This document shows, one piece after another, positions 5,925 to 23,273 of a stretch of 38,429 nucleotides of DNA; within the stretch, counting starts at the first letter, position 1; every line of letters begins with the position of its first letter. Position numbers and translations under genes: made by a program. The DNA lies in IMG/VR virus record IMGVR_UViG_3300020446_001735, positions 1-38,429 of that record; one strand, given 5' to 3'. The DNA is from a virus. Under the pieces are notes generated by a model that saw only the letters and a program-made list of their open reading frames with translations, did not search any database and was not told the DNA's origin.

Positions 5925-6297
5925 ATTACTTAATGTTGACTGGTTGATTCGTATCCCGTTATCAATTGTATTTTTACAGCAAGGAGTTAGTAAACTTCCA
6001 TTCAGTGCAGAAGACGCAGCATCTTTTGATTTGCCTGTTCTTGTATGGTTTTTTGTTGTGGCTGGAGAAATAGGAGCTGGAATAGGATTAATTGTAGGTG
6101 GTCTTATTCAAAAACTTTGGAATGGTATTGCTGATATTATAACCAGGTTTAGCGGATTTACAATAGGTTGTATTATGACCGGTGTAATATGGATTAGTCA
6201 GCCGGAAAACTTAATAGATGTTTTGTTGTACGATAACTTACATGTATTTCTTTGGGTTGGCGGGTTATTCTTTGCACTAAAGGGGAATCGTAAATGA
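5908..6297 (+). CDS. DoxX-like integral membrane protein
   Basis: The 129-residue protein has four hydrophobic segments (about residues 10-25, 44-66, 82-97 and 107-123). The first is followed by LQQGVSKL and the second contains [14 protein letters not shown], which resemble the DoxX family of four-helix inner-membrane proteins. DoxX proteins are linked to quinone or thiol redox chemistry in bacteria, but the role here is unknown. It overlaps the end of gene 44 by 17 bases and the start of guaC by 4, so the pair was probably gained together or is at least co-translated. Confidence 0.6.
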
Positions 6298-7412
6298 GAA
6301 TTGAAGAAGACGTAAAATTAGATTATAATGACGTGCTTTTCAGACCGAAAAGATCTACACTTGTTTCCAGAAAAGATGTAGATTTAGATCGTCACTATGA
6401 ATTTGCTAATGGAGAAAAATTTTATAACATCCCAATCATGGCTGCAAACATGGATGGTGTTGGTACATTTGAAATGGCGGATGCTTTGGCTAAGCTAGGC
6501 TTATTTACATGCCTACTTAAATCTTATACCGTTGCGCAATATGTAGATTTCTTTGACACAGATGACAAATGGATAGAAGTACATAAGCTCAATAGACAAC
6601 ACTGTACTGCGTATACTATGGGAATCAGCGATGAAGATCATCAAAAGTTTCGTATGGTATATGAACAAGCACCACAAATCAAATATGTCTGTATTGATGT
6701 GGCGAATGGATACACACAAAGGTTTGCTGAATTTGTAAAACAATTTAGAGATCTTTATCCAAAGATTGTTATCATTGCTGGTAATGTCTGTACAGCAGAC
6801 GCAACTCAAGAATTAATTTTAAATGGAGCAGATATTGTTAAAGTTGGTATTGGACCAGGATCTGTTTGCACTACGCGTATTCAAACGGGTGTTGGTTATC
6901 CTCAGCTTAGTGCTGTTATCGAGTGTGCTGATGCAGCGCATGGCCTCGGAGGTTTTATTATTGCTGATGGCGGTTGCAACTCTGCCGGCGATGTCGCTAA
7001 AGCATTTGGCGCTGGGGCTGACTTCGTTATGCTTGGTGGGATGCTTGCTGGCCACGATGAAGGAGGTGGAGAGATAATTACGAAGTACTTCTCGACCGGT
7101 GAACAGTGGTTCGATAAAAAGAATGAAACGTATAATCCTGTAATTACTAATGACAAGTTTGTACAATTCTACGGAATGAGTTCTGACACAGCGAATGAAA
7201 AACATTTTGGCGGTTTGAAAAATTACCGATCTTCAGAAGGTCGCGATGTTCAAGTTCCATATCGCGGCGGTATAAATAGAACAGTGCAAGATATCCTAGG
7301 TGGTTTACGCTCAACTTGTACATATGTTGGTGCGGCTGGTCTTAAGCAGTTAAGTAAATGCACCACCTTTATTCGTTGTAATGATACTCATAATCGAGTC
7401 TTTGAAAAATGA
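6294..7412 (+). CDS. guaC: GMP reductase
   Basis: The 372-residue TIM-barrel protein starts [20 protein letters not shown], very close to bacterial GuaC (E. coli [20 protein letters not shown]). It has the catalytic-cysteine loop GPGSVCTTR (C192), [14 protein letters not shown] and the GMP reductase-type YRSSEG plus [15 protein letters not shown] near the end. There is no CBS insertion, which argues against IMP dehydrogenase. The enzyme reduces GMP to IMP with NADPH. In a phage it could move guanine nucleotides from degraded host RNA toward adenine nucleotides for an AT-rich genome (inference). It sits between clamp-loader genes 44 and 62, overlapping both neighbours by 4 bases. Confidence 0.93.
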
Positions 7413-7786
7413 ATCCATTTGATTTTGTAAATGCGATCAACTATGACAAACAAGATATCATGGTTGACGACATCGCTGAAAAACAATACGTTCCATTTAT
7501 GGTGAATCGAAGCTTGTCTTATTTCCAAGACACAGTGCTGATGGCTAATGAGATGAATCTGAATGCTCATCTTGACAATCGTCTACAATTTGACTTTTTT
7601 ATAAATATAGTCAGAAAACGCAAAAGGTTTTCTAAGTGGTTCAAACCTGAAACACAAAGTGATGTGGAAGTAGTCAAGACTTATTATGGTTACAGCAATG
7701 AAAAAGCTCGTCAAGTCTTGTCCCTTCTCACAAAAGATCAGATTGAAGTATTGAAGAAGAAGGTGAACAAAGGTGGAAGAAAATAA
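7409..7786 (+). CDS. 62: clamp loader small subunit (gp62)
   Basis: This 125-residue protein lies directly before regA, where T4 has gene 62. It resembles the shorter gp62 of marine T4-like phages, with N-terminal [10 protein letters not shown], an RKRKRFSKW basic block (similar in spacing to GKRYGKW of T4 gp62) and a YYGYSNEKA segment. gp62 is the non-ATPase subunit that bridges the gp44 ring. It is shorter than T4 gp62 (187), as expected for that group. It starts by overlapping guaC and its last 14 bases overlap the GTG start of regA. Confidence 0.82.
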
Positions 7787-8183
7787 TATTGTGGAGTGGT
7801 CTCCTAACGCGATGTTAGAAGTCACTTTAAACGAGCCGGATGACTTTCTAAAAATTAGAGAAACCCTAACTCGCATCGGTGTTGCGTCCAGAAAAGATCG
7901 CAAGCTTTATCAATCGTGTCATATTCTGCATAAGCAAGGCAGATATTTTATTGTACACTTTAAAGAGTTGTTTTTACTCGATGGAAAGAAATCTAATTTA
8001 GAAGAAAACGATATTGCACGTAGAAATACAATTGCAACTTTAATGAGTGATTGGGGATTGGTTACAATCGAAAGCAAAGAAAAAGCTCAACCTCTTGCTC
8101 CTTTAAGACAAATAAAAATCATTTCGTATAAAGATAAAACTAACTGGGAACTTTGTCCAAAGTACAACATTGGAAATAAATGA
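7773..8183 (+). CDS. regA: RegA translational repressor
   Basis: From residue 14 the protein (MLEVTLNEPDDFLKIRETLTRIG) aligns closely with T4 RegA, including LYQSCHIL, the YFIVHFKE block, DWGL and the C-terminal LCPKYNIGN. RegA binds the initiation regions of early mRNAs and blocks their translation. The GTG at 7773 gives 136 residues; the in-frame ATG at 7812 gives 123, nearly the T4 length of 122, and begins exactly where T4 RegA does. The GTG has AAGAAGG upstream, so I list the longer form but regard the ATG as equally likely. Confidence 0.93.
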   Translation: MEENNIVEWSPNAMLEVTLNEPDDFLKIRETLTRIGVASRKDRKLYQSCHILHKQGRYFIVHFKELFLLDGKKSNLEENDIARRNTIATLMSDWGLVTIESKEKAQPLAPLRQIKIISYKDKTNWELCPKYNIGNK

Positions 8184-9164: not shown

Positions 9165-9632
9165 ATGACTGGCACTTTTACGTTCCCACGCGGAGCATTC
9201 GTTGGCTTTGATCACATTGCGAAAGACTTAGAACGTCTTGCACATGCACACCAAAAAGATCATTATCCGCCACATAATGTAGTCAAGCACAATGATGACG
9301 AGTTTCTTATTGAACTCGCTGTCGTTGGATTCAAAGAAAAAGATATCGATATCACGATGCATGATGGTATTCTAACTGTCAAAGGCGATCGTGAGTCACG
9401 TCGAGATCAAAATCTTTATGTCCATAAAGGTATCAGTGGTAGAAAATTCGAGAGGTCATTTAGACTCTCCGAATTTGTAGAAGTCACTGGAGCTGATCTT
9501 GAAGATGGATTGCTTACAATTCACTTGGAGCGAATCATCCCCGAAGAGAAGCGTCCTCGTAAAATTCTAATTGGAAACTACGAGGAAAAAAATGGCAACA
9601 GCAATTCTCAACTACTCACAGAGTCTGATTGA
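9165..9632 (+). CDS. hsp20: small heat-shock protein, Hsp20 family
   Basis: The 155-residue protein has an alpha-crystallin domain at about residues 36-130, with ELAVVGFKEKDIDITMHDGILTV, a KFERSFRL strand and the ADLEDGLLTIHL strand, where canonical members have A.(Y/L)..G.L.I. Small heat-shock proteins hold unfolding proteins, and Hsp20 genes are common in marine T4-like phages. GAGG lies eight bases before the ATG. The last 41 bases overlap the next gene. Other chaperones are not seen in the window. Confidence 0.93.
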   Translation: MTGTFTFPRGAFVGFDHIAKDLERLAHAHQKDHYPPHNVVKHNDDEFLIELAVVGFKEKDIDITMHDGILTVKGDRESRRDQNLYVHKGISGRKFERSFRLSEFVEVTGADLEDGLLTIHLERIIPEEKRPRKILIGNYEEKNGNSNSQLLTESD

Positions 9633-9834: not shown

Positions 9835-9980
9835 TTAAGATGTTCAAACGAATCTTTAGCTTACGTCCTTCGATGTCATGGCAACAAAGAGAAATAGAAA
9901 GATATCTTGCTAACTCGACTGATCATTTTGACTTAGAATGTCGTCAAAAAGATATCATTTACGGAAGGAAAAATTTATGA
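9831..9980 (+). CDS. DUF3563-like small protein
   Basis: The 49-residue product starts in an ATGA overlap and ends overlapping the pseudoazurin ATG. After a basic amphipathic head (KMFKRIFSLRPS) comes EIERYLANSTDHFDLECRQKDI. This resembles DUF3563, a short proteobacterial and phage family with the pattern EEAYLAQAxDxxDLExR. The function of the family is unknown. The assignment rests on this pattern. Confidence 0.65.
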   Translation: MIKMFKRIFSLRPSMSWQQREIERYLANSTDHFDLECRQKDIIYGRKNL

Positions 9981-10411
9981 AAACATTAGCATTTTATCTA
10001 TCAGCATTTGCAGTTATCTTTGCAGTTAGTTCTGCATCAGCAGCTGATCTTACTATTGATATGCTGAATAAAGATGCAGATGGTAACAAAATGGTTTATT
10101 CGAATGAATTGGCTAGAGTAGAAGTAGGTGAAACTATCACTTGGTTACCAGCTTCGAAAGGTCACAATGTCGAATGGATTGCAGGACCTGATGGAGCAGA
10201 TCTTCCTAAAAAGTCTAAGAATGGCAAAGAAGTTTCTATGACTTTTGAAGTACCTGGCATCTATTACTATTGGTGCACACCACATAAAGGCATGGGCATG
10301 ATTGGTCTTGTCGTAGTCGGTGGCGACGTATCTAATAAAGATGCAATTGCTAAAGCAAAAGCCTTAGGTAAATCAAAGAAGAAGCTAAAGGCTCTCTTAG
10401 GAGAACTTTAA
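9977..10411 (+). CDS. pseudoazurin, secreted type-1 copper protein
   Basis: The 144-residue precursor has a signal peptide ending SASA (cleavage after A22). The mature part of 122 residues matches bacterial pseudoazurins (about 123): MLNKDADGNKMV, KGHNVEW and CTPHKGMGMIG. The type-1 copper ligands are H63, C100, H103 and M108, with the family spacing C-x2-H-x4-M. The C-terminal Lys-rich helices after VVVGG are also present. Pseudoazurins shuttle electrons in the periplasm, for example to nitrite or nitrous oxide reductases. In a phage it could redirect host respiration (inference). The start overlaps the upstream DUF3563-like gene and has ACGGAAGGA before the ATG. Confidence 0.93.
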   Translation: MKTLAFYLSAFAVIFAVSSASAADLTIDMLNKDADGNKMVYSNELARVEVGETITWLPASKGHNVEWIAGPDGADLPKKSKNGKEVSMTFEVPGIYYYWCTPHKGMGMIGLVVVGGDVSNKDAIAKAKALGKSKKKLKALLGEL

Positions 10412-15995: not shown

Positions 15996-16351
15996 TGTCG
16001 AAAGAAAGTCTAAAGTTTCTGCAACGTGCCGCAGAAATACAAAACAAAAAGGGTAATGATTATCAGAACCCTAACTCACGCGTTCGTCAAGCAATGTACT
16101 ATCCTCGTGGTTGTGCTACTATTCTAGACACAATGCAAGCTAAAATTCTTCGTATGCAATCTGTGCTCGAAGCAATGGAGTCCGATCCAAGTTATCAACC
16201 TAACTTTGAATCGCTAGAAGATTCCTGTCTCGATATCATTAACTATGCTTCTTTCTTTGCTGCGTATATGAATGGTGGTATTGATGGCCAGCATCCGGAT
16301 CATGACTTCCTTAATCGTCCGAAGAAAGTAGTCAACAATGAAGGTGAGTAA
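15995..16351 (+). CDS. DUF1599-like protein (nucleotide modification associated domain 1)
   Basis: The 118-residue protein has KKGNDYQNPN near the start, a KILRM helix and EDSCLDIINYASFFAAY, matching the pattern of DUF1599, where K.xDY, KxxR and ExxxDxxxY are conserved. DUF1599 has been linked by gene context to modified-nucleotide synthesis in phages, hence its other name. Here it directly precedes dCMP hydroxymethylase and overlaps its start by 14 bases, which fits. The biochemical function is not established. Confidence 0.65.
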   Translation: MSKESLKFLQRAAEIQNKKGNDYQNPNSRVRQAMYYPRGCATILDTMQAKILRMQSVLEAMESDPSYQPNFESLEDSCLDIINYASFFAAYMNGGIDGQHPDHDFLNRPKKVVNNEGE

Positions 16352-17033
16352 TATCAGGGAGTATTTCATCAATGAACTTCAAAATGAAAACTTCACGGTG
16401 GACCGATCAGGACAAAAAACTATTGAGCTCATCGGTGCATCCTTTGAAGCCGACGAACCGTCGATCTTCGGGACTGTCAATCAAGGCTATGTTGATGCTG
16501 AGCTTGCTTGGTATAAGTCTATGTCTACTAACATATATGATATACGACCTGAAGCAGAACCTCCAGCAGCTTGGAAATATAGTGCAAACGAACATGGAGA
16601 TATTAACAGTAATTACGGAAAACTAATTTACTCCGATAAATACTATGGCCAATATCACCAGGCACTCGATGAGTTACTTCGTAATATGGATTCTCGTCGT
16701 GCCACTATGATTTACACACGTCCTTCTATCTGGACAGAATATGATGAACATGGTAAAAACGATTTCATATGTACTAATGCTGTCACTTATTATATACGCA
16801 ATGGCGCAATCCACGCTGTGGTCCAAATGCGTTCAAACGATGTTGTGTACGGATACAAAAATGACTATGCTTGGCAGCTTCATGTTCTAAAAGATTTTGT
16901 AGACGATTACAACGCATGTTACCTTGATGGTGCCTGGGACGCCGACTATCGTAGAGAAATGGAAGTCGGCACTATCACATGGCAAGTACAAAATCTTCAC
17001 GTATATGAAAGGCACTTCGATCTTGTCAAGTAA
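16338..17033 (+). CDS. 42: deoxycytidylate 5-hydroxymethylase (gp42)
   Basis: The 231-residue thymidylate-synthase fold enzyme matches T4 gp42 (246) segment by segment: IELIGASFEADEPSIFG, DINSNYGKLI, DSRRATMIYTRPS, FICTNAVTYYIR, MRSNDVVYGYKNDYAW and LHVYERHFDLV. C145 is the catalytic cysteine (T4 C148). D176 aligns with T4 D179, the residue that selects dCMP where thymidylate synthases have Asn. It makes 5-hydroxymethyl-dCMP from dCMP and methylene-tetrahydrofolate. The phage DNA is therefore expected to contain 5-hydroxymethylcytosine or a derivative. A folate-independent gap in dTMP supply is covered by thyX at 25377. Confidence 0.96.
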   Translation: MKVSNIREYFINELQNENFTVDRSGQKTIELIGASFEADEPSIFGTVNQGYVDAELAWYKSMSTNIYDIRPEAEPPAAWKYSANEHGDINSNYGKLIYSDKYYGQYHQALDELLRNMDSRRATMIYTRPSIWTEYDEHGKNDFICTNAVTYYIRNGAIHAVVQMRSNDVVYGYKNDYAWQLHVLKDFVDDYNACYLDGAWDADYRREMEVGTITWQVQNLHVYERHFDLVK

Positions 17034-17463
17034 ATGGGATACAAGATTTCTAATCCTTGCAAAGGAAGTTGCGTCTTGGTCGAAAGATCCATCACGCCAG
17101 ATCGGTGCAGTATGCGTTGACAATCGCACAGTCATTGCAACCGGCTATAATGGGTTTCCTCGAGGAATAGAAGATAATCCTTTACTTTACGAGAATCGTG
17201 ATATAAAATATAAGTACGTTGTTCATGCTGAAATGAACGCTATCTTTAATGCTACATATAATGGCGTGTGTTTGGATGGAGCAACGTTATACGTATATGG
17301 CTTACCAGTTTGTTCTGATTGTGCTAAAGGCGTAATTCAAGTTGGTATTAGTCGTGTAGTCATGCCTCAGCAAGAAATTCCAGATCACTGGACTGAGTCA
17401 TGGAGTTTAACACAGTCGATGTTCGACGAAGCAGGTATTCAATGGGAGTTTATCGATGCCTAA
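17005..17463 (+). CDS. cd: dCMP deaminase
   Basis: The 152-residue zinc deaminase has HAEMNAI (H74, E76) and PVCSDC (C103, C106), with SKWDTRFLILAKEVASWSKDPSRQIGAV typical of the deoxycytidylate deaminase family. It converts dCMP to dUMP, feeding thymidylate synthesis by ThyX and competing with gp42 for dCMP. The ATG at 17005 lies inside the end of gene 42 without a clear ribosome site; a TTG at 17023 is an alternative that would begin LSSKWD. An ATG at 17034 is out of frame. Confidence 0.92.
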   Translation: MKGTSILSSKWDTRFLILAKEVASWSKDPSRQIGAVCVDNRTVIATGYNGFPRGIEDNPLLYENRDIKYKYVVHAEMNAIFNATYNGVCLDGATLYVYGLPVCSDCAKGVIQVGISRVVMPQQEIPDHWTESWSLTQSMFDEAGIQWEFIDA

Positions 17464-17614
17464 GACTCAAGAATGGATTAAACAAAAAATGGCAGAAGAG
17501 TCTGTTACCTATTGGACAGAAATGAAATTGACCGAAGAGGTGAAAGAACTAAAAGAAAGAATGAAAAAACTCGAAATCGATATTGCTCACCTTTTGCGAA
17601 AAGCAAATGGATAA
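17456..17614 (+). CDS. 52-residue coiled-coil protein
   Basis: ATG at 17456 overlaps the deaminase end, and the stop overlaps the next gene start. The product is a charged helix (about residues 20-48, with heptad-like spacing through LTEEVKELKERMKKLEIDIAHLL). It may be a small oligomerising adaptor. The family is unknown. It is too short to judge further. Confidence 0.62.
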   Translation: MPKTQEWIKQKMAEESVTYWTEMKLTEEVKELKERMKKLEIDIAHLLRKANG

Positions 17615-17993
17615 AGTATTAGTAATAGGTCACAGCCCTTCCTCGAAAGAATACTGTCCGAGGAAGGGCAATCCTACTCACAATCGTCTCAACCGTTGGT
17701 TAGATGACTGTGGTGTGGAAATATACAGCTTTACTAATGCGTGTGCACACCGTGCGACTTCACTAAAGTTAACTGATATTGATAGAACATTTTTACATGA
17801 AGTAGTAAAAGGCTATAATAAAATTCTATCATTAGGCAATGACGTGAATAATATTCTAACAAAGATGGAGATCGAGCATTACGCACTCCCTCATCCATCT
17901 CCACTAAACAGAAAGTTTAATGACAAAGCGTACGAACCGAAAATCATAAATAACTTAAAATCGTATTTACAAATAGACTCAACTGTTGTATAA
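17607..17993 (+). CDS. uracil-DNA glycosylase superfamily-like protein
   Basis: The 128-residue protein has VLVIGHSPSS (G8-S12), the NxC/H strand SFTNAC (N44), ILSLGNDV (about 73-80) and LPHPSPLNRKF (HPSPLN at 96-101). These correspond in order to the GxxPS, N, and HPSPL elements of the uracil-DNA glycosylase superfamily. It is shorter than usual members (about 190-230), so one or more peripheral helices are missing. It lies between dCMP deaminase and the DNA glycosyltransferase, so it could act on uracil or on a modified base; the substrate is unknown. The stop overlaps the next promoter. Confidence 0.68.
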   Translation: MDKVLVIGHSPSSKEYCPRKGNPTHNRLNRWLDDCGVEIYSFTNACAHRATSLKLTDIDRTFLHEVVKGYNKILSLGNDVNNILTKMEIEHYALPHPSPLNRKFNDKAYEPKIINNLKSYLQIDSTVV

Positions 17994-18015: not shown

Positions 18016-19254
18016 ATGAAAACGATTATCCTACTCGGTCGTGGGACCGAAGGCTGCGGCGTTACACAATGCGCTATCCAAATGCAAAAAGTAACCGGAG
18101 CCACTATCCTCTCAGCAAATGATAAGAAGTGGGGAAGAGCCAAAGGCCTCGACCTTCAGCAGACAGAAATGTCTGTTGGTAAAGAATGGGAAGAGATGGC
18201 AAACATTGTTAATCAGCACGATGTTTGTATCGTATATTCTGTTCCTTCTAAATCACATCCTCAAGATTGTCAAGATAATTTTCCAAAACTGTTGGAAGCA
18301 ATCACAATACGTAAAGCATTTATCAATGTAGACCACAAGGCTGCATCGATTGCACGTAATGCAAACCTTGTCGAGGTTTGTAAAAAGATGGACGTGATTA
18401 TGACTCATAGTCTGGAGAATGACTTCTCTCGATTTATGAAGAAAAACAAAATCCTTGTACCACTCAAGAAGATGGGACTTGGATTTGATTATGATGGTCA
18501 TAGAGCAAAATACTGGAAAGGTATCCACACACAACAAAGAAGTATGGTGCGTTGGATTGGCCGAACAGCTATGTGGAAAGGTCCGGCTCTTATGATTGAC
18601 TACCATCAGGACGCTTTGATGGATGCTGAATTTATTACAGTCCTTGAAGGATTGGAAGCGTCAATCCAATATCCACTCGTGTTATATCGTGACAATAAGG
18701 AAGAAACACCTACGGATCGTCGTAAGGTTGTTAATTACTTTCGTCCAGAAAAACAACACGGTGAAACACAAAAGTTTTTGCCAGAATTTTATGGCACAGA
18801 AAAAGTAGGAAATGGTGCATACCTTTATCCTCAATATATAAATGAAGATTGTATGAATAGAATGTCACGTTCTGCTTTTGGCGCAGATCTATATCATCTG
18901 AAAGCAGAAACCTATGGAAACAATATTGAGAACTGTCATGCAGAAATCATTGCATCTGGCGCAGTACCAATTTTTCATAAACACTTCTGTGATAACGTCA
19001 TACATAAAAAACAGGGTAAGCCAGTAACCCTGTGTAAAGATACTGGTACAATCGGTCTTGATTATTCTAACTTTGAAGAATGTAAGGAAGTCATGATCAA
19101 ACTTAAAAACGATCCTGCGATGAGAGATGATTGGCGTGAAATGGCGTTTGAATTTTGGAAGCAACACTCAGATGGTGAGATGGTTGTAGGTGAAATTATG
19201 GAATTGGCCACAAGCGACGAACACCAACCACAAGGACTCGAGGAGTTTTTCTAA
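18016..19254 (+). CDS. DNA glycosyltransferase, T4 alpha-glucosyltransferase-like
   Basis: The 412-residue protein matches T4 alpha-glucosyltransferase (400) along its length: N-terminal GRGTEGCGVT (T4 ARGLEGCGVT), DHKAASIARNANL, RWIGRTAMWKG (T4 RWIGRTTTWKG) and YINEDCMNRMSRSAFG. T4 AGT moves glucose from UDP-glucose to hydroxymethylcytosine in DNA. Here two sugar-nucleotide enzymes follow directly, so the sugar may be different. The C-terminus GLEEFF resembles the clamp-binding tail of gp43 (LDEFFA) in this window; T4 AGT has been reported to bind gp45. It overlaps the next gene by one base. Confidence 0.88.
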   Translation: MKTIILLGRGTEGCGVTQCAIQMQKVTGATILSANDKKWGRAKGLDLQQTEMSVGKEWEEMANIVNQHDVCIVYSVPSKSHPQDCQDNFPKLLEAITIRKAFINVDHKAASIARNANLVEVCKKMDVIMTHSLENDFSRFMKKNKILVPLKKMGLGFDYDGHRAKYWKGIHTQQRSMVRWIGRTAMWKGPALMIDYHQDALMDAEFITVLEGLEASIQYPLVLYRDNKEETPTDRRKVVNYFRPEKQHGETQKFLPEFYGTEKVGNGAYLYPQYINEDCMNRMSRSAFGADLYHLKAETYGNNIENCHAEIIASGAVPIFHKHFCDNVIHKKQGKPVTLCKDTGTIGLDYSNFEECKEVMIKLKNDPAMRDDWREMAFEFWKQHSDGEMVVGEIMELATSDEHQPQGLEEFF

Positions 19255-20201
19255 TGAAAACTATTTTTATCACCGGTATTTCCGGCATGATTGGTTACCA
19301 CTCAGCCAAAATGTATAATCAACTTGGGTGGAAAGTAACAGGCATCGATGATTTTAATAATTATTACGATGTCAAACTCAAAGGTGCGCGTGAAGCAATC
19401 CTTAATGGCATCGGCATCAGTGTGATTGACGGTTCTATTCAAGATCCAGAATCATATCGCGATATCATGGCTGAAGCTGATGTTGTACTTCATCTTGCAG
19501 CATATGCAAATCCTAGGCATGCTATGGATGAGCCTCAGCTTTACATTGACACGAATATCACTGGTACGCAACGTCTTCTAGAAATTGCAGAACAGCATGA
19601 TATTCCAGTTGTATACGCATCAAGCTCGTGTGTAATGCATGGACAAGAACTTCCATGGAACGAACATGATGCTAACGGCCATCAGAATAATCCTTATGGC
19701 TGGTCTAAGTATGTCAACGAATGTCAATTTAAATATAGCAAGTTGTCTAAATCAACTGGCCTTCGCTTCTTTACTGTGTATGGTCCGTATGGTCGACCAG
19801 ACATGGCGCTGTTTAAATTTACAGATGCGATTGTAAAAGGCGAAAAGCTTACACTGTATAATTACGGCAACATGATTCGTGACTTTACATACGTAGAAGA
19901 TATTGTACAAGGCATCACACTGGTTGTAGATCAAATTCTAGATCCGGAACATGATGGTCATGAGCTTTATAATATTGGATATGGCGAACAAGTTAATCTC
20001 ATGGATTTTGTTGAGGCAATTGAAAATGAGCTTGGTCGTAAAGGTGAGTATGATCTGGTACCAGCACACCCGGCTGACGTACCGGCAACTTGGTCTGACA
20101 CTAGTAAACTTCAGAAGCTTGGATATAAACCTACTACACCAATCAGCGAAGGTGTAAAGCATTTTGTATCTTGGTACAAGGAGTACTACAATGTCAATTA
20201 A
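19254..20201 (+). CDS. nucleotide-sugar epimerase, UDP-glucuronate 4-epimerase-like
   Basis: This 315-residue extended SDR has GISGMIG (8-14), ASSS (122-125) and Y148-x3-K152. Family hallmarks FNNYYDVKLKGAR and GLRFFTVYGPYGRPDMA are those of UDP-glucuronate 4-epimerases (UDP-GlcA to UDP-GalA). UDP-xylose synthases have a different N-terminal pattern. UDP-glucose 4-epimerase activity cannot be excluded from motifs alone. It sits between the DNA glycosyltransferase and a UDP-glucose dehydrogenase, which supports a UDP-glucose to UDP-GlcA to UDP-GalA route. It overlaps the next gene by 11 bases. Confidence 0.85.
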   Translation: MKTIFITGISGMIGYHSAKMYNQLGWKVTGIDDFNNYYDVKLKGAREAILNGIGISVIDGSIQDPESYRDIMAEADVVLHLAAYANPRHAMDEPQLYIDTNITGTQRLLEIAEQHDIPVVYASSSCVMHGQELPWNEHDANGHQNNPYGWSKYVNECQFKYSKLSKSTGLRFFTVYGPYGRPDMALFKFTDAIVKGEKLTLYNYGNMIRDFTYVEDIVQGITLVVDQILDPEHDGHELYNIGYGEQVNLMDFVEAIENELGRKGEYDLVPAHPADVPATWSDTSKLQKLGYKPTTPISEGVKHFVSWYKEYYNVN

Positions 20202-21018
20202 GAAGATTGCTATCATTGGACATGGCTATGTAGGGAAAGCTGTAGATCATGGCTTTTCCACATCGCATGTTGAAAAGTTTTTGGTGGATCCAATTTATGG
20301 TTCTACCATTGGTGATCTTAAACTTAAAACTCGTTTGGACGCAGCATTTGTTTGCGTTCCGACACCATTCGGAGATGATGGAAGTATTGATGCCTCGATT
20401 GTAAAAGAAGTTGTGACAGAGCTTCAATACTTTAATTGTCCTATTATCATCAAGTCGACAGTGACTCCTGATATTGTAAGTGAACTTTATAATGAAGACT
20501 CGAATGTTGTTTACAATCCGGAGTTTCTAACCGAAGCAAATGCTCTTGATGATTTTATTAATCCTTCTATGCATATCTTTGGAGGTAACATTATGATTAC
20601 TCGTAGAGTTCAAGAACTTTACGAAAATCACAGTCAGTGTCGTCCTTGTCCTGTCAGGCATATGACTCCTGCTGAAGCGAGCTTTGTTAAGTATGGAATC
20701 AATAGTTTTCTAGCTACAAAAGTTCTATGGTTCAACCAATTTAAAGATGTGGTGGATCAACATGATTCAAAATACAATGTGGTTGTAAATGCCATGAGCA
20801 TGGATCCACGTATTTCTACTTCGCATATGCAGGTGCCAGGACCTGATGGTAAAAAAGGATTTGGCGGAGCATGCTTCCCCAAAGACACTAACGCCTTTTC
20901 TACTTTCTCTCAAAATGCTTTCACTGTTCTAGATGAAGTGATTAGTGCCAATAATACATATAGAAAAGAATATGATCTAGACCACAGAGAAATTGAACAG
21001 AAAGTAAATTATGGCTAA
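20191..21018 (+). CDS. minimal UDP-glucose 6-dehydrogenase
   Basis: The 275-residue protein has the UGD signatures in order: GHGYVG (10-15), FVCVPTP (53-59), STVTP (89-93), NPEFLTEANALDDF (109-122), FVKYGINSF with K167 and N171, and GGACFPKD with catalytic C228. It ends about 30 residues after that cysteine, so the whole C-terminal UDP-binding domain (about 130 residues in usual 390-450 residue enzymes) is absent, and the N-terminal Rossmann part is shortened too. All core catalytic residues remain. AAGGAG precedes the ATG, which lies inside the epimerase end. The product would be UDP-glucuronate. Confidence 0.85.
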   Translation: MSIKKIAIIGHGYVGKAVDHGFSTSHVEKFLVDPIYGSTIGDLKLKTRLDAAFVCVPTPFGDDGSIDASIVKEVVTELQYFNCPIIIKSTVTPDIVSELYNEDSNVVYNPEFLTEANALDDFINPSMHIFGGNIMITRRVQELYENHSQCRPCPVRHMTPAEASFVKYGINSFLATKVLWFNQFKDVVDQHDSKYNVVVNAMSMDPRISTSHMQVPGPDGKKGFGGACFPKDTNAFSTFSQNAFTVLDEVISANNTYRKEYDLDHREIEQKVNYG

Positions 21019-22210
21019 CTACGCAAGTATTGTTCCTCTAATCGGAGGAGAAACAATAGCAATGCAAAATGTATTCGGGTCTCGGCCCGAATACATTCTG
21101 TCTTACGAAGGATTTGAAAACAATGATCAACACTTGGTGGAATACTATAAGAGAGAAGTTCCCTACCATCTTATTCAAGGTGATTCTTTACCTCAGGTTG
21201 AGTCTGTTGATGTCATTAATACTGTTTGCCCTTGCGCTGGGCTTAGCAGTCTTAGTGTCACAAGCTCTTCTGACGCTGCTGCTAATGATTGGATGCGTAC
21301 CAGTGCTCGTCATGTACTCGGTCATCTACGGCCCAAGGTCTTTTGGGGAGAAAATGCACCACGACTTGCTTCAAAAATGGGAGAACCAGTCGTGGAAGAT
21401 CTTCGAAAGATCGGAAGAGAAAATGGCTACACTTTTAGCATCTTTAAAACAAAAAGTATCCTTCATGGATTATCTCAAGTAAGAGATCGTACTTTTTATT
21501 TTTTCTGGAAAGGCGAAAAGGTACCACAATTTGAATATATAAAACGTGAGCATGAAACGATCGAGGATACGATTCGCTCCGTGAAGCGGGATCCAAGTGA
21601 TCCAATGAACATCCTAACGTCTGATCGTGCTCCGTCACAAGATCCATATTATAGGTACGTTCTCGAAGAAATGGAGAACGGCATTAATCACAGCGCGTTT
21701 CAAGATAAACTTGAAAAAAGCTATGATGTGAAGCACTACATTGAAGACAATGGAGTTACCTATGACAAAGTATCTAAATGGATGTCAAAGCATGGCTACG
21801 AGAAACAAGCTTCTCGTTGTATGGACATGTATCATAAATTAAAGAGTGGTGGTAATATTATGCGTCGTGGTGTCAATATTCCAAAAGGCTACATTGGAGC
21901 TTTTGTTGGCGCATATCCTATGACACTGACTCATCCGGATGAAGATAGATTTCTAACATTGAGAGAATGCTTATCAATTATGAAACTGCCTGAAGATTTT
22001 ATTCTTCAAGGTGGACTAAAAAATATCAATCACATCTGTCAGAACGTGCCAGTAACGACAGCACAGGACATGGCAGATCATGTACTTCGTTATGTTGATG
22101 GAAGATTAGATAACCAACTAATCGATACCGATTATCTCGTACAAGACAACAAGTCTCAAACGCTTTCTTATGAAAAAGAGAGTGTACAACTTGACGCATT
22201 TATGGTATAA
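21011..22210 (+). CDS. cytosine-C5 DNA methyltransferase homologue
   Basis: The 399-residue protein keeps the C5-methyltransferase motifs CPCAGLS (motif IV, catalytic C75), GENAPR (motif VI) and QVRDRTFYFF (motif VIII). Motif I, normally DLFAGxGG, is replaced by IVPLIGGET, so cofactor binding may be altered. There is a long central target-recognition region (about 190-290) and a C-terminal motif IX/X part. It ends VQLDAFMV, similar to the gp43 clamp tail. The ATG at 21011 overlaps UGD; an ATG at 21062 behind GGAGGAG would remove motif I. Its substrate in a hydroxymethylcytosine phage is unclear. Confidence 0.82.
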   Translation: MANYASIVPLIGGETIAMQNVFGSRPEYILSYEGFENNDQHLVEYYKREVPYHLIQGDSLPQVESVDVINTVCPCAGLSSLSVTSSSDAAANDWMRTSARHVLGHLRPKVFWGENAPRLASKMGEPVVEDLRKIGRENGYTFSIFKTKSILHGLSQVRDRTFYFFWKGEKVPQFEYIKREHETIEDTIRSVKRDPSDPMNILTSDRAPSQDPYYRYVLEEMENGINHSAFQDKLEKSYDVKHYIEDNGVTYDKVSKWMSKHGYEKQASRCMDMYHKLKSGGNIMRRGVNIPKGYIGAFVGAYPMTLTHPDEDRFLTLRECLSIMKLPEDFILQGGLKNINHICQNVPVTTAQDMADHVLRYVDGRLDNQLIDTDYLVQDNKSQTLSYEKESVQLDAFMV

Positions 22211-22235: not shown

Positions 22236-23273
22236 ATGAGTATTATGGATAAATTGAAGAAGAATAGTAAAGTCAAAGAAACTTCTATTCTTTCTGATTC
22301 GAAATTCTTTACCGAAAAAGATATGGTAAAGACCGAAGTGCCAATGATTAACGTGGCATTATCGGGTTCCGTGGATGGCGGACTTGCGCCAGGACTGACA
22401 GTTTTAGCTGGCCCATCCAAACACTTCAAAACATCATTCGCTTTGATTATGGCATCAGCATATCTCAAAGAAAACGAAGATGCTGTGCTTCTATTCTATG
22501 ATTCAGAGTTTGGTTCACCGCAATCATACTTTGAAAACTTTGATATCGATACAAGCCGTGTTCTTCACACGCCAATCACAAACGTTGAAGAACTAAAGTT
22601 TGATATCATTGCACAGTTAGAAGGCATTGAACGCAATGATAAGGTTGTCATTGTAATTGACTCGGTCGGTAACCTCGCATCTAAAAAAGAATTGGAAGAT
22701 GCCATTAATGAAAAGTCCGTTGCCGATATGTCAAGAGCAAAAGCTCTCAAAGGTTTGTTCCGCATGTGTACTCCGTACTTGAACATGAAGAACATTCCTT
22801 TGATTGCTGTCAACCATACATATATGGAAATCGGGTTATTCCCCAAAGCAATTGTGTCAGGTGGTACTGGCATTTACTACAGCGCTGATAACATATGGAT
22901 TTTAGGCAGACAACAAGATAAGCAAGGCACTGAAATCAAAGGCTACCACTTTGTTATCAACGTGGAGAAATCACGCTATGTTAAAGAAAAGTCTAAGATT
23001 CCCATCAGTGTTAGCTGGGAAGGTGGAGTACAAAAGTGGTCTGGCCTGCTTGATGTTGCTCTCCAAGGTCAATATGTCGCTAAGCCGTCTAATGGCTGGT
23101 ATTGCAGGGTTAGCCGGGAAACTGGGGAATTACTTGAACCGAAAGTACGAGAGAAACAAACCTTAGAAGAAGAGTTTTGGAAACCAATCTTTGAAGAAAC
23201 AGACTTTAAAGATTATCTCAAAAATCGATTTTCAATTCTAAATGAAAGAGGCATTGAAGATGTCGCAGAATGA
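22236..23273 (+). CDS. uvsX: RecA-like recombination protein UvsX
   Basis: The 345-residue protein has Walker A GPSKHFKTS (59-67, the unusual T4-type P-loop), Walker B VVIVIDSVGNL (near 132-142) and the VNHTY strand, with a C-terminal acidic tail. T4 UvsX has 391 residues. It forms filaments on single-stranded DNA and drives strand invasion for recombination-dependent replication, working with 46/47. TTTAGGAGAG precedes the ATG. A small membrane-protein gene begins in its last five codons. Confidence 0.95.
   Translation: MSIMDKLKKNSKVKETSILSDSKFFTEKDMVKTEVPMINVALSGSVDGGLAPGLTVLAGPSKHFKTSFALIMASAYLKENEDAVLLFYDSEFGSPQSYFENFDIDTSRVLHTPITNVEELKFDIIAQLEGIERNDKVVIVIDSVGNLASKKELEDAINEKSVADMSRAKALKGLFRMCTPYLNMKNIPLIAVNHTYMEIGLFPKAIVSGGTGIYYSADNIWILGRQQDKQGTEIKGYHFVINVEKSRYVKEKSKIPISVSWEGGVQKWSGLLDVALQGQYVAKPSNGWYCRVSRETGELLEPKVREKQTLEEEFWKPIFEETDFKDYLKNRFSILNERGIEDVAE

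Follow-up and report, generated by a model that had tools for sequence, protein, structure and literature searches.

The window analysed here, a virus contig of 38,429 bases, encodes once a protein of the C5-methyltransferase type, which is referred to as the PLIGG enzyme after its rewritten motif I (Table 1). The first part of the surrounding gene order comprises genes for a DNA polymerase, a MazG-like protein, a primase-like protein, a small hydrolase-like ORF, a dCMP hydroxymethylase and a dCMP deaminase. These are followed by genes for a UDG-superfamily protein, a DNA alpha-glucosyltransferase (AGT)-like protein, a nucleotide-sugar epimerase/dehydratase (SDR), a UDP-glucose dehydrogenase (UGD), the PLIGG enzyme, uvsX, a gp41-like helicase and thyX. 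Elsewhere in the window, a GMP reductase homologue (6294-7412; 2a7r 9.4e-125) was found between both clamp-loader genes, and a plastocyanin-like protein (9938-10411, phrog_515) and an Hsp20 protein (9165-9632, phrog_432) recall cyanophages.

A reading of this DNA from sequence only had placed a C5-methyltransferase homologue with intact PC, ENAP and QxRxR motifs at 21011-22210. This assignment was confirmed by a match of the protein to PF00145 (2.9e-16, 60.2 bits against a cut-off of 22), with PC at residues 74-75, ENAP at residues 114-117 and QxRxR, in the form QVRDR, at residues 156-160. The PF00145 match starts at profile position 29, that is, after motif I, so that motif I lies outside the match. 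Global profile-profile alignment (hhalign, probability 99.8) placed VPLIGG on the canonical FAGIGG without gaps.

Table 1. Genes and motifs of the DNA-modification island in the window
Feature	Position	Strand	Evidence or remark
dCMP hydroxymethylase (T4 gp42 type; Asp at dCMP-specifying site, GYKND)	16338..17033	+	PDB 1b49 5.5e-66
dCMP deaminase homologue	16924..17463	+	phrog_174 5.8e-43; start uncertain; overlaps hydroxymethylase gene
UDG-superfamily protein	17583-17993		PF03167 2.7e-5, just over cut-off
DNA alpha-glucosyltransferase (AGT) homologue, T4 type	18016..19254	+	PF11440 1.1e-35; phrog_2888 1.5e-71
Nucleotide-sugar epimerase/dehydratase (SDR)	19254..20201	+	PF01370 3.3e-43
UDP-glucose dehydrogenase homologue (UGD)	20164..21018	+	phrog_9148 6.2e-45; 8-base overlap with start of PLIGG enzyme
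C5-methyltransferase-fold protein (PLIGG clade), 399 aa	21011..22210	+	ATG start, open frame
Rewritten motif I: VPLIGG (residues 8-13) for FAGxGG	21032..21049	+	Register from hhalign
Residue 33, likely motif II acid site	21107..21109	+	Asp/Glu in 130/215; Glu33 in window
Motif IV PCA (residues 74-76), catalytic Cys75	21230..21238	+	Cys 218/218; following Gln replaced by Ala in 214/218
Motif VI ENAP (residues 114-117)	21350..21361	+	219/219
Motif VIII QVRDR (residues 156-160)	21476..21490	+	Arg158 219/219, Arg160 220/220, Gln156 218/219
Rewritten motif X: CQNVP (residues 343-347) for GN[AS]VP	22037..22051	+	Register from hhalign
uvsX recombinase, downstream boundary of island	22236..23273	+	PF21134 2.8e-13, PF00154 9.1e-10

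Predicted fold

Structure prediction assigns the DNA cytosine-5 methyltransferase fold to the window protein. A first AlphaFold model, from 48 alignment rows, had a pLDDT of 82.8, and a second one, from 50 more diverse rows, reached 90.3, with values below 50 at residues 76-91, the loop past the catalytic Cys. In VIA-align comparisons of the predicted model, Z scores were 23.8 for 3g7u (rmsd 3.0, 284 residues), 23.7 for CmoX (8yf3; rmsd 3.6, 287 residues, 20% identity) and 23.5 each for M.HhaI (1fjx) and M.HaeIII (1dct). As judged with this model, the four are tied as the closest among the structures listed. When the first model was compared with predicted structures of viral proteins, gp301 of phage G ranked first (E 1.2e-20).

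Family, descent and selection

Relatives of the enzyme were collected from viral contigs. A first scan confirmed 153 of them, of which 80 were kept (the first 80 loci hereafter); a second, alignment-based scan, of which 80 were also kept, confirmed at least 557, making the clade a common one, and scans from distant members added further sequences. The resulting alignment held 221 sequences, including the window protein and gp301, which has no alignment at the motif I region; many of its rows are closely related to one another. Because the enzyme has relatives in named phage records as well as in several hundred contigs, an artefact of a single contig was ruled out.

In the phylogenetic tree, 52 non-redundant clade members grouped together (support 100/98), and the 20 canonical enzymes as well as gp301, on a very long branch, fell outside this group. 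Among these 52 rows the N-terminal half was conserved equally to the catalytic half, with mean identities of 0.582 over residues 4-39 and 0.585 over residues 66-170; elsewhere the values were 0.381 (residues 40-65) and 0.418 (residues 171-305). The dN/dS ratio of the window gene against seven relatives was 0.11-0.17 over codons 1-225. Over codons 1-60 it was 0.07-0.21 in six of the seven pairs, dS being above 1 in three of those six and saturated in the seventh pair. Altogether, the PLIGG clade is monophyletic and under purifying selection, and a loss of function was ruled out by the invariant catalytic residues together with the low dN/dS.

Cofactor-binding and catalytic motifs

In M.HhaI, the sites of motifs I, II, III and X contact SAM. 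The replacement of the SAM-binding FAGxGG, noted from the sequence as PLIGGET, extends as PLIGG or PLVGG across the whole family: P-L-[IV]-G-G was present in 212/212 readable sequences of the 221, and P9, L10, G12 and G13 were identical in all 212 sequences reaching motif I, window included, so that the rewriting is not a chance event. The last two Gly residues of the motif are kept, the first Gly is changed to Leu, and Phe to Val or Ile. With regard to motif II, residue 33 was acidic in 130/215 clade sequences, and an acidic residue was found anywhere within residues 31-34 in 134. The register of this motif is uncertain by two residues, since hhalign places the site two positions earlier, where Ser or Thr is found; in either register a conserved motif II acid is absent from the clade. 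Motif III is loosely kept, with an acid within residues 56-58 in 194/216 sequences. In motif X, [CA]Q was present in 218/218 sequences, Gln344 in 218/218 and Asn345 in 217/218. Motif IV has an extra Cys as well (Cys73, 200/218), as does motif X (Cys343, 208/218).

These sites were compared with those of two sets of control enzymes, 28 and 20 in number, obtained from a search of 150 genomes. The first set consisted of 28 of 30 listed loci that were among the best-scoring, chosen by the pattern PCQ + EN[VA] + QxRxR (the two left out had PCP and CAGAGG); the second was made up of 20 weaker-scoring, divergent bacterial enzymes. The motif I Gly was present in 28/28 enzymes of the first set, the Phe in 27, the motif II acid in 28, the motif III Asp in 23/28 and the motif X Asn in all 27 readable sequences; Gln followed the catalytic Cys in 28/28, as selected by PCQ. 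The corresponding values for the divergent set were 19/20 for the motif I Gly, 19 for Phe, 20 for the motif II acid, 15 for the motif III Asp and 18 for Gln after Cys, with the motif X Asn in only 11/20 (Asp in 8, Glu in 1). For both sets combined, the motif I Gly was kept in 47/48 and the motif II acid in 48/48, and Gln occupied the motif X Asn site in 0/47 readable sequences. Since the Gly of motif I and the acid of motif II are both upheld in the controls, these two features set the clade apart most firmly; the motif X GN, with Asn kept in only 11 of the divergent controls, is weakly defining and therefore less telling.

On the catalytic side, Cys75, Glu114, Asn115, Arg158 and Arg160 were invariant among readable sequences. 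The replacement of the Gln after the catalytic Cys by Ala should free space near C5; in M.HhaI, bulky groups have been handled with changes at Q82 and N304. That the enzyme might use another cofactor, as had been suggested from the sequence, is thus favoured by the departure of motifs I, II and X from the norm next to untouched catalytic residues. On the other hand, SAM may still bind in an altered mode, as the GG of motif I is kept in 212/212 sequences and an acid lies near motif III in 194/216.

Gene neighbourhood

The position of the enzyme next to uvsX is a regular feature of the family. The uvsX gene was found in 78 of the first 80 loci, on the same strand and downstream of the enzyme in 78/78 and no more than 200 bases away in 73; an SDR-like gene was found between the two in four loci (L075, L077, L078 and L080). 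A tie of the enzyme to one sugar pathway was considered and rejected, as the divergence among the sugar genes is much greater than that of the enzyme. The AGT match dropped to 45-49% in 29 of the first 80 loci where the enzyme was at 69-76%, the SDR match dropped to 29-37% in 43 of them where the enzyme was at 66-76%, and UGD was frequently without a match. In addition, AGT (phrog_2888) was present in only 8/25 large records with the enzyme or gp301, so this family is no fixed companion.

In other clades, different glycosyltransferase-like genes lie close to the enzyme. A beta-glucosyltransferase match in locus L156 and a glycosyltransferase-family match in Pseudoalteromonas phage XG4 were both below the cut-off, and a TET-associated glycosyltransferase family protein (TAGT, PF20691 2.4e-15, over the cut-off) is encoded at 7171-8001 of locus L201, directly upstream of the enzyme. 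A search for TET/JBP partners matched 0/24 records, and the positive controls of this search gave no match either.

Further genes were noted in these islands. The UDG-superfamily protein, which may remove deaminated or wrong bases, was matched at a large number of the first 80 loci. A threonine-dehydratase-like protein (phrog_7093 1.1e-37) is encoded in the island of L162 (6047-6913), and a look-alike, recognised by eye, is found at 8082-9020 of L372, a locus without the enzyme; a PDB search with the PLP-like neighbour gave no match.

Link to hydroxymethylcytosine

The sequence-only reading had taken the virus for a hydroxymethylcytosine (hmC) phage. At the level of genes, this premise is supported by the dCMP hydroxymethylase and the T4-type AGT homologue of the window. 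To judge from gene content, phages carrying the PLIGG enzyme probably replace cytosine by a decorated form. Among 26 chosen large records (at least 45 kb) with the enzyme or gp301, comprising 22 IMG/VR and 4 phage records, the hydroxymethylase was matched in 19. Six of the other seven (S-TIM5, S-TIM54 and four related contigs) matched the thymidylate-synthase (TS) family, and the sole exception among the 26 was G174, a record of 45.8 kb, perhaps a fragment, with no TS-family match. In total, 25/26 large records contain a TS-family protein, and in each of the 25 one such protein reads Asp where E. coli TS has Asn177. Across the whole alignment, a TS-family ORF lay in the same stretch in 113/221 loci, with Asp at this site in 113/113 (two of them read by eye); among stretches of at least 12 kb it was found in 73/80, with none within the stretch in 7/80.

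Asp in place of Asn177 of E. coli TS switches preference to dCMP, according to a passage of PMC8670742 that concerns 5-methyl-dCMP. Given this source, the residue denotes dCMP preference and not hydroxymethylation, and 5mC might therefore be the base in S-TIM5 and phage G. The annotated ThyA of S-TIM5 (locus L082, 8769-9605, minus strand) is of the Asp type at TS position 177 (GVPLD). S-TIM5 also carries an AGT homologue, and its DNA may hold modified cytosine. Phage G (JN638751) encodes one Asn-type and one Asp-type TS-family protein and two AGT homologues.

As a control, 80 uvsX loci were analysed, 61 of them with 1.5 kb and 34 with 5 kb of upstream sequence. By local search, the enzyme was present in 33/61 of those with 1.5 kb upstream. 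In the loci with at least 5 kb upstream, the hydroxymethylase was found in 16/17 with the enzyme vs 7/17 without it (Fisher p 0.0024, a value to be taken only as a guide, the rows being related). Whole records from uvsX loci without the enzyme contained the TS family in 7/13, the absence of the enzyme from these 13 records (of 28 uvsX loci without the enzyme) coming from a search in which nothing matched. Conversely, the enzyme was present in 32/45 hydroxymethylase loci with 6.5 kb downstream. From the values of 16/17 vs 7/17 and 32/45, the enzyme accompanies the hydroxymethylase more than the reverse. The suggested tie of the enzyme to hmC is therefore upheld as far as co-occurrence goes (25/26 records; 16/17 vs 7/17), although the same co-occurrence equally fits an enzyme acting on leftover cytosine.

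Discussion

We tentatively propose, as a reading that we hold somewhat short of probable, that the PLIGG enzyme acts covalently at C6 of bases in hmC-containing phage DNA and does not methylate with SAM in the canonical way. The dCMP-directed company of the gene, the kept catalytic half, the altered SAM contacts and the Ala beside the catalytic Cys lead us to infer that chemistry on hmC would be the purpose of the enzyme. As in its relatives, the enzyme would flip a cytosine-type base out of DNA and Cys75 would attack C6, the target base in phage DNA being presumably hmC, or hmC before its glycosylation. Adduct formation by the thiolate would activate the 5-hydroxymethyl group, which could lose water to give an exocyclic methylene, and a small nucleophile bound in the place once occupied by SAM could then trap this methylene; alternatively, the hydroxymethyl group could leave as formaldehyde. 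In neither case would SAM be used canonically. The fuller statement, that an abundant clade of C5-methyltransferase fold gave up SAM and performs C6-thiolate chemistry on hmC in DNA, swapping the hydroxyl or removing the hydroxymethyl group, is rather doubtful. Between its two outcomes we favour capture, that is, hypermodification, over removal; no constant neighbour able to make a nucleophile was found among the loci surveyed, and this counts against the proposal.

Known enzymes with this fold provide precedents for action on hmC. In a passage of PMC11347137, M.MpeI is described as forming weak adducts with hmC DNA in a reaction that required SAM, at least with DTT; the loss of the hydroxymethyl group as formaldehyde was inferred there, and hydroxymethyl loss without SAM is cited for other enzymes. 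A passage of PMC7176277 describes an engineered M.SssI that adds thiols to hmC. By analogy, the weakness of the M.MpeI adducts and their need for SAM, at least with DTT, would speak against the proposed chemistry on hmC. If the proposal were true, the PLIGG enzyme would perform in nature what has until now been seen only as a side reaction of methyltransferases in vitro, and would show how a SAM enzyme loses SAM yet keeps its catalytic half. Phage hmC would then be a sugar handle and also the substrate of a methyltransferase turned to a new use, and there may be a DNA base still to be discovered.

According to the main rival, the enzyme still depends on SAM, which it would bind in a diverged pocket, and is a C5-methyltransferase of the cytosines escaping hmC replacement, which it would methylate for example to shield them from a nuclease of the phage or of the host. 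We regard it as doubtful. Its fold and catalysis are those of true methyltransferases, its kept motif I GG and the acid near motif III would leave room for SAM, and variation at motif X is seen in divergent bacterial enzymes too, where Asn was lost in 9/20. These points have to be set against the family-wide loss of the motif I Gly and the lack of conservation of the motif II acid, two features kept in 47/48 and 48/48 controls, respectively.

A DNA-level hydroxymethylase, adding a one-carbon unit from formaldehyde or folate onto residual dC and so finishing the work of the dCMP hydroxymethylase, appears improbable. One-carbon addition is the reverse of formaldehyde release from hmC. The regular company of dCMP-directed TS-family enzymes would suit such an activity, as would the release of formaldehyde from hmC inferred for M.MpeI in the passage of PMC11347137; against it, folate is in our judgement large for the pocket. 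Still less probable is an enzyme that modifies the DNA of the host, so as to mark or cripple it, with the phage DNA protected by hmC: host DNA would be the main source of unmodified cytosine in the infected cell, but the gene lies inside a phage DNA-modification island, between the hydroxymethylase and uvsX. A base-flipping DNA-binding protein without catalysis would agree with the altered SAM side and is very unlikely in view of the invariant catalytic Cys, Glu and Arg. Least likely of all is a CmoX-like carboxymethyltransferase using carboxy-SAM, although CmoX (8yf3), itself a phage enzyme, is among the tied closest structures (VIA Z 23.7). The site of CmoX Arg350 is Gln344 in 218/218 clade sequences, the adenosine contacts kept in CmoX are lost in the clade, and a CmoA search found 0/24 records over the cut-off and one weak match in G165, with the E. 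coli control matched and many of the records, including that of the window, being possibly fragments. On these three grounds, carboxymethylation was rejected as the best reading.

With regard to earlier descriptions, we recognised none of a PLIGG clade, an S-TIM5 clade or an hmC-linked methyltransferase homologue in the non-subscription literature. Neither did the passages of works on RB69 arabinosylation (PMC6024577), Thanatos (PMC12838424) and SP-15 (PMC5977210) contain a recognisable description of the clade, and the word 'methyltransferase' is absent from the main text of the pelagimyophage paper PMC7029224. The presence of clade members in named isolates (S-TIM5 and XG4) allows the question of C6 chemistry on hmC to be put directly to virion DNA.

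Comparison with known systems

The nearest precedent for a changed cofactor is CmoX, the DNA cytosine carboxymethyltransferase of Synechococcus phage S-B43 (8YF3), which uses carboxy-SAM, as described in a passage of PMC12783734. CmoX and the PLIGG clade are alike in being phage C5-methyltransferase homologues, of which CmoX departed from SAM and the clade may have done so; they differ at the cofactor contacts. According to the same passage (PMC12783734), CmoX keeps Phe25, Glu47 and Asp69 for adenosine and has Arg350 at the site of M.HhaI Asn304. The corresponding positions in the PLIGG clade are Val or Ile, variable, loosely kept and Gln, respectively.

With M.HhaI, M.HaeIII and DNMT1 (PF00145), the clade shares the fold, the order of motifs, the catalytic Cys in PC, EN, RxR and the motif IX Glu. 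It differs from these enzymes in four replaced features, namely the Gly of motif I, the acid of motif II, the Asn of motif X and the Gln that follows the catalytic Cys, and it forms a separate clade. Bacillus phage G gp301 resembles the PLIGG enzyme in the presence of PCSGLS and ENAP and of alpha-glucosyltransferase genes nearby; on the contrary, its identity is 21.5%, it has no PLIGG and it carries Met for Gln in QxRxR.

The 'DNA methylase' of cyanophage S-TIM5 and the homologue of Pseudoalteromonas phage XG4 are members of the clade, with PLVGG or PLIGG and QNVP, at 30-33% identity to the window protein. In XG4, whose record is marked unverified, PVC stands for PPC/CPC, and in S-TIM5 the Asp-type TS-family protein is of another lineage.
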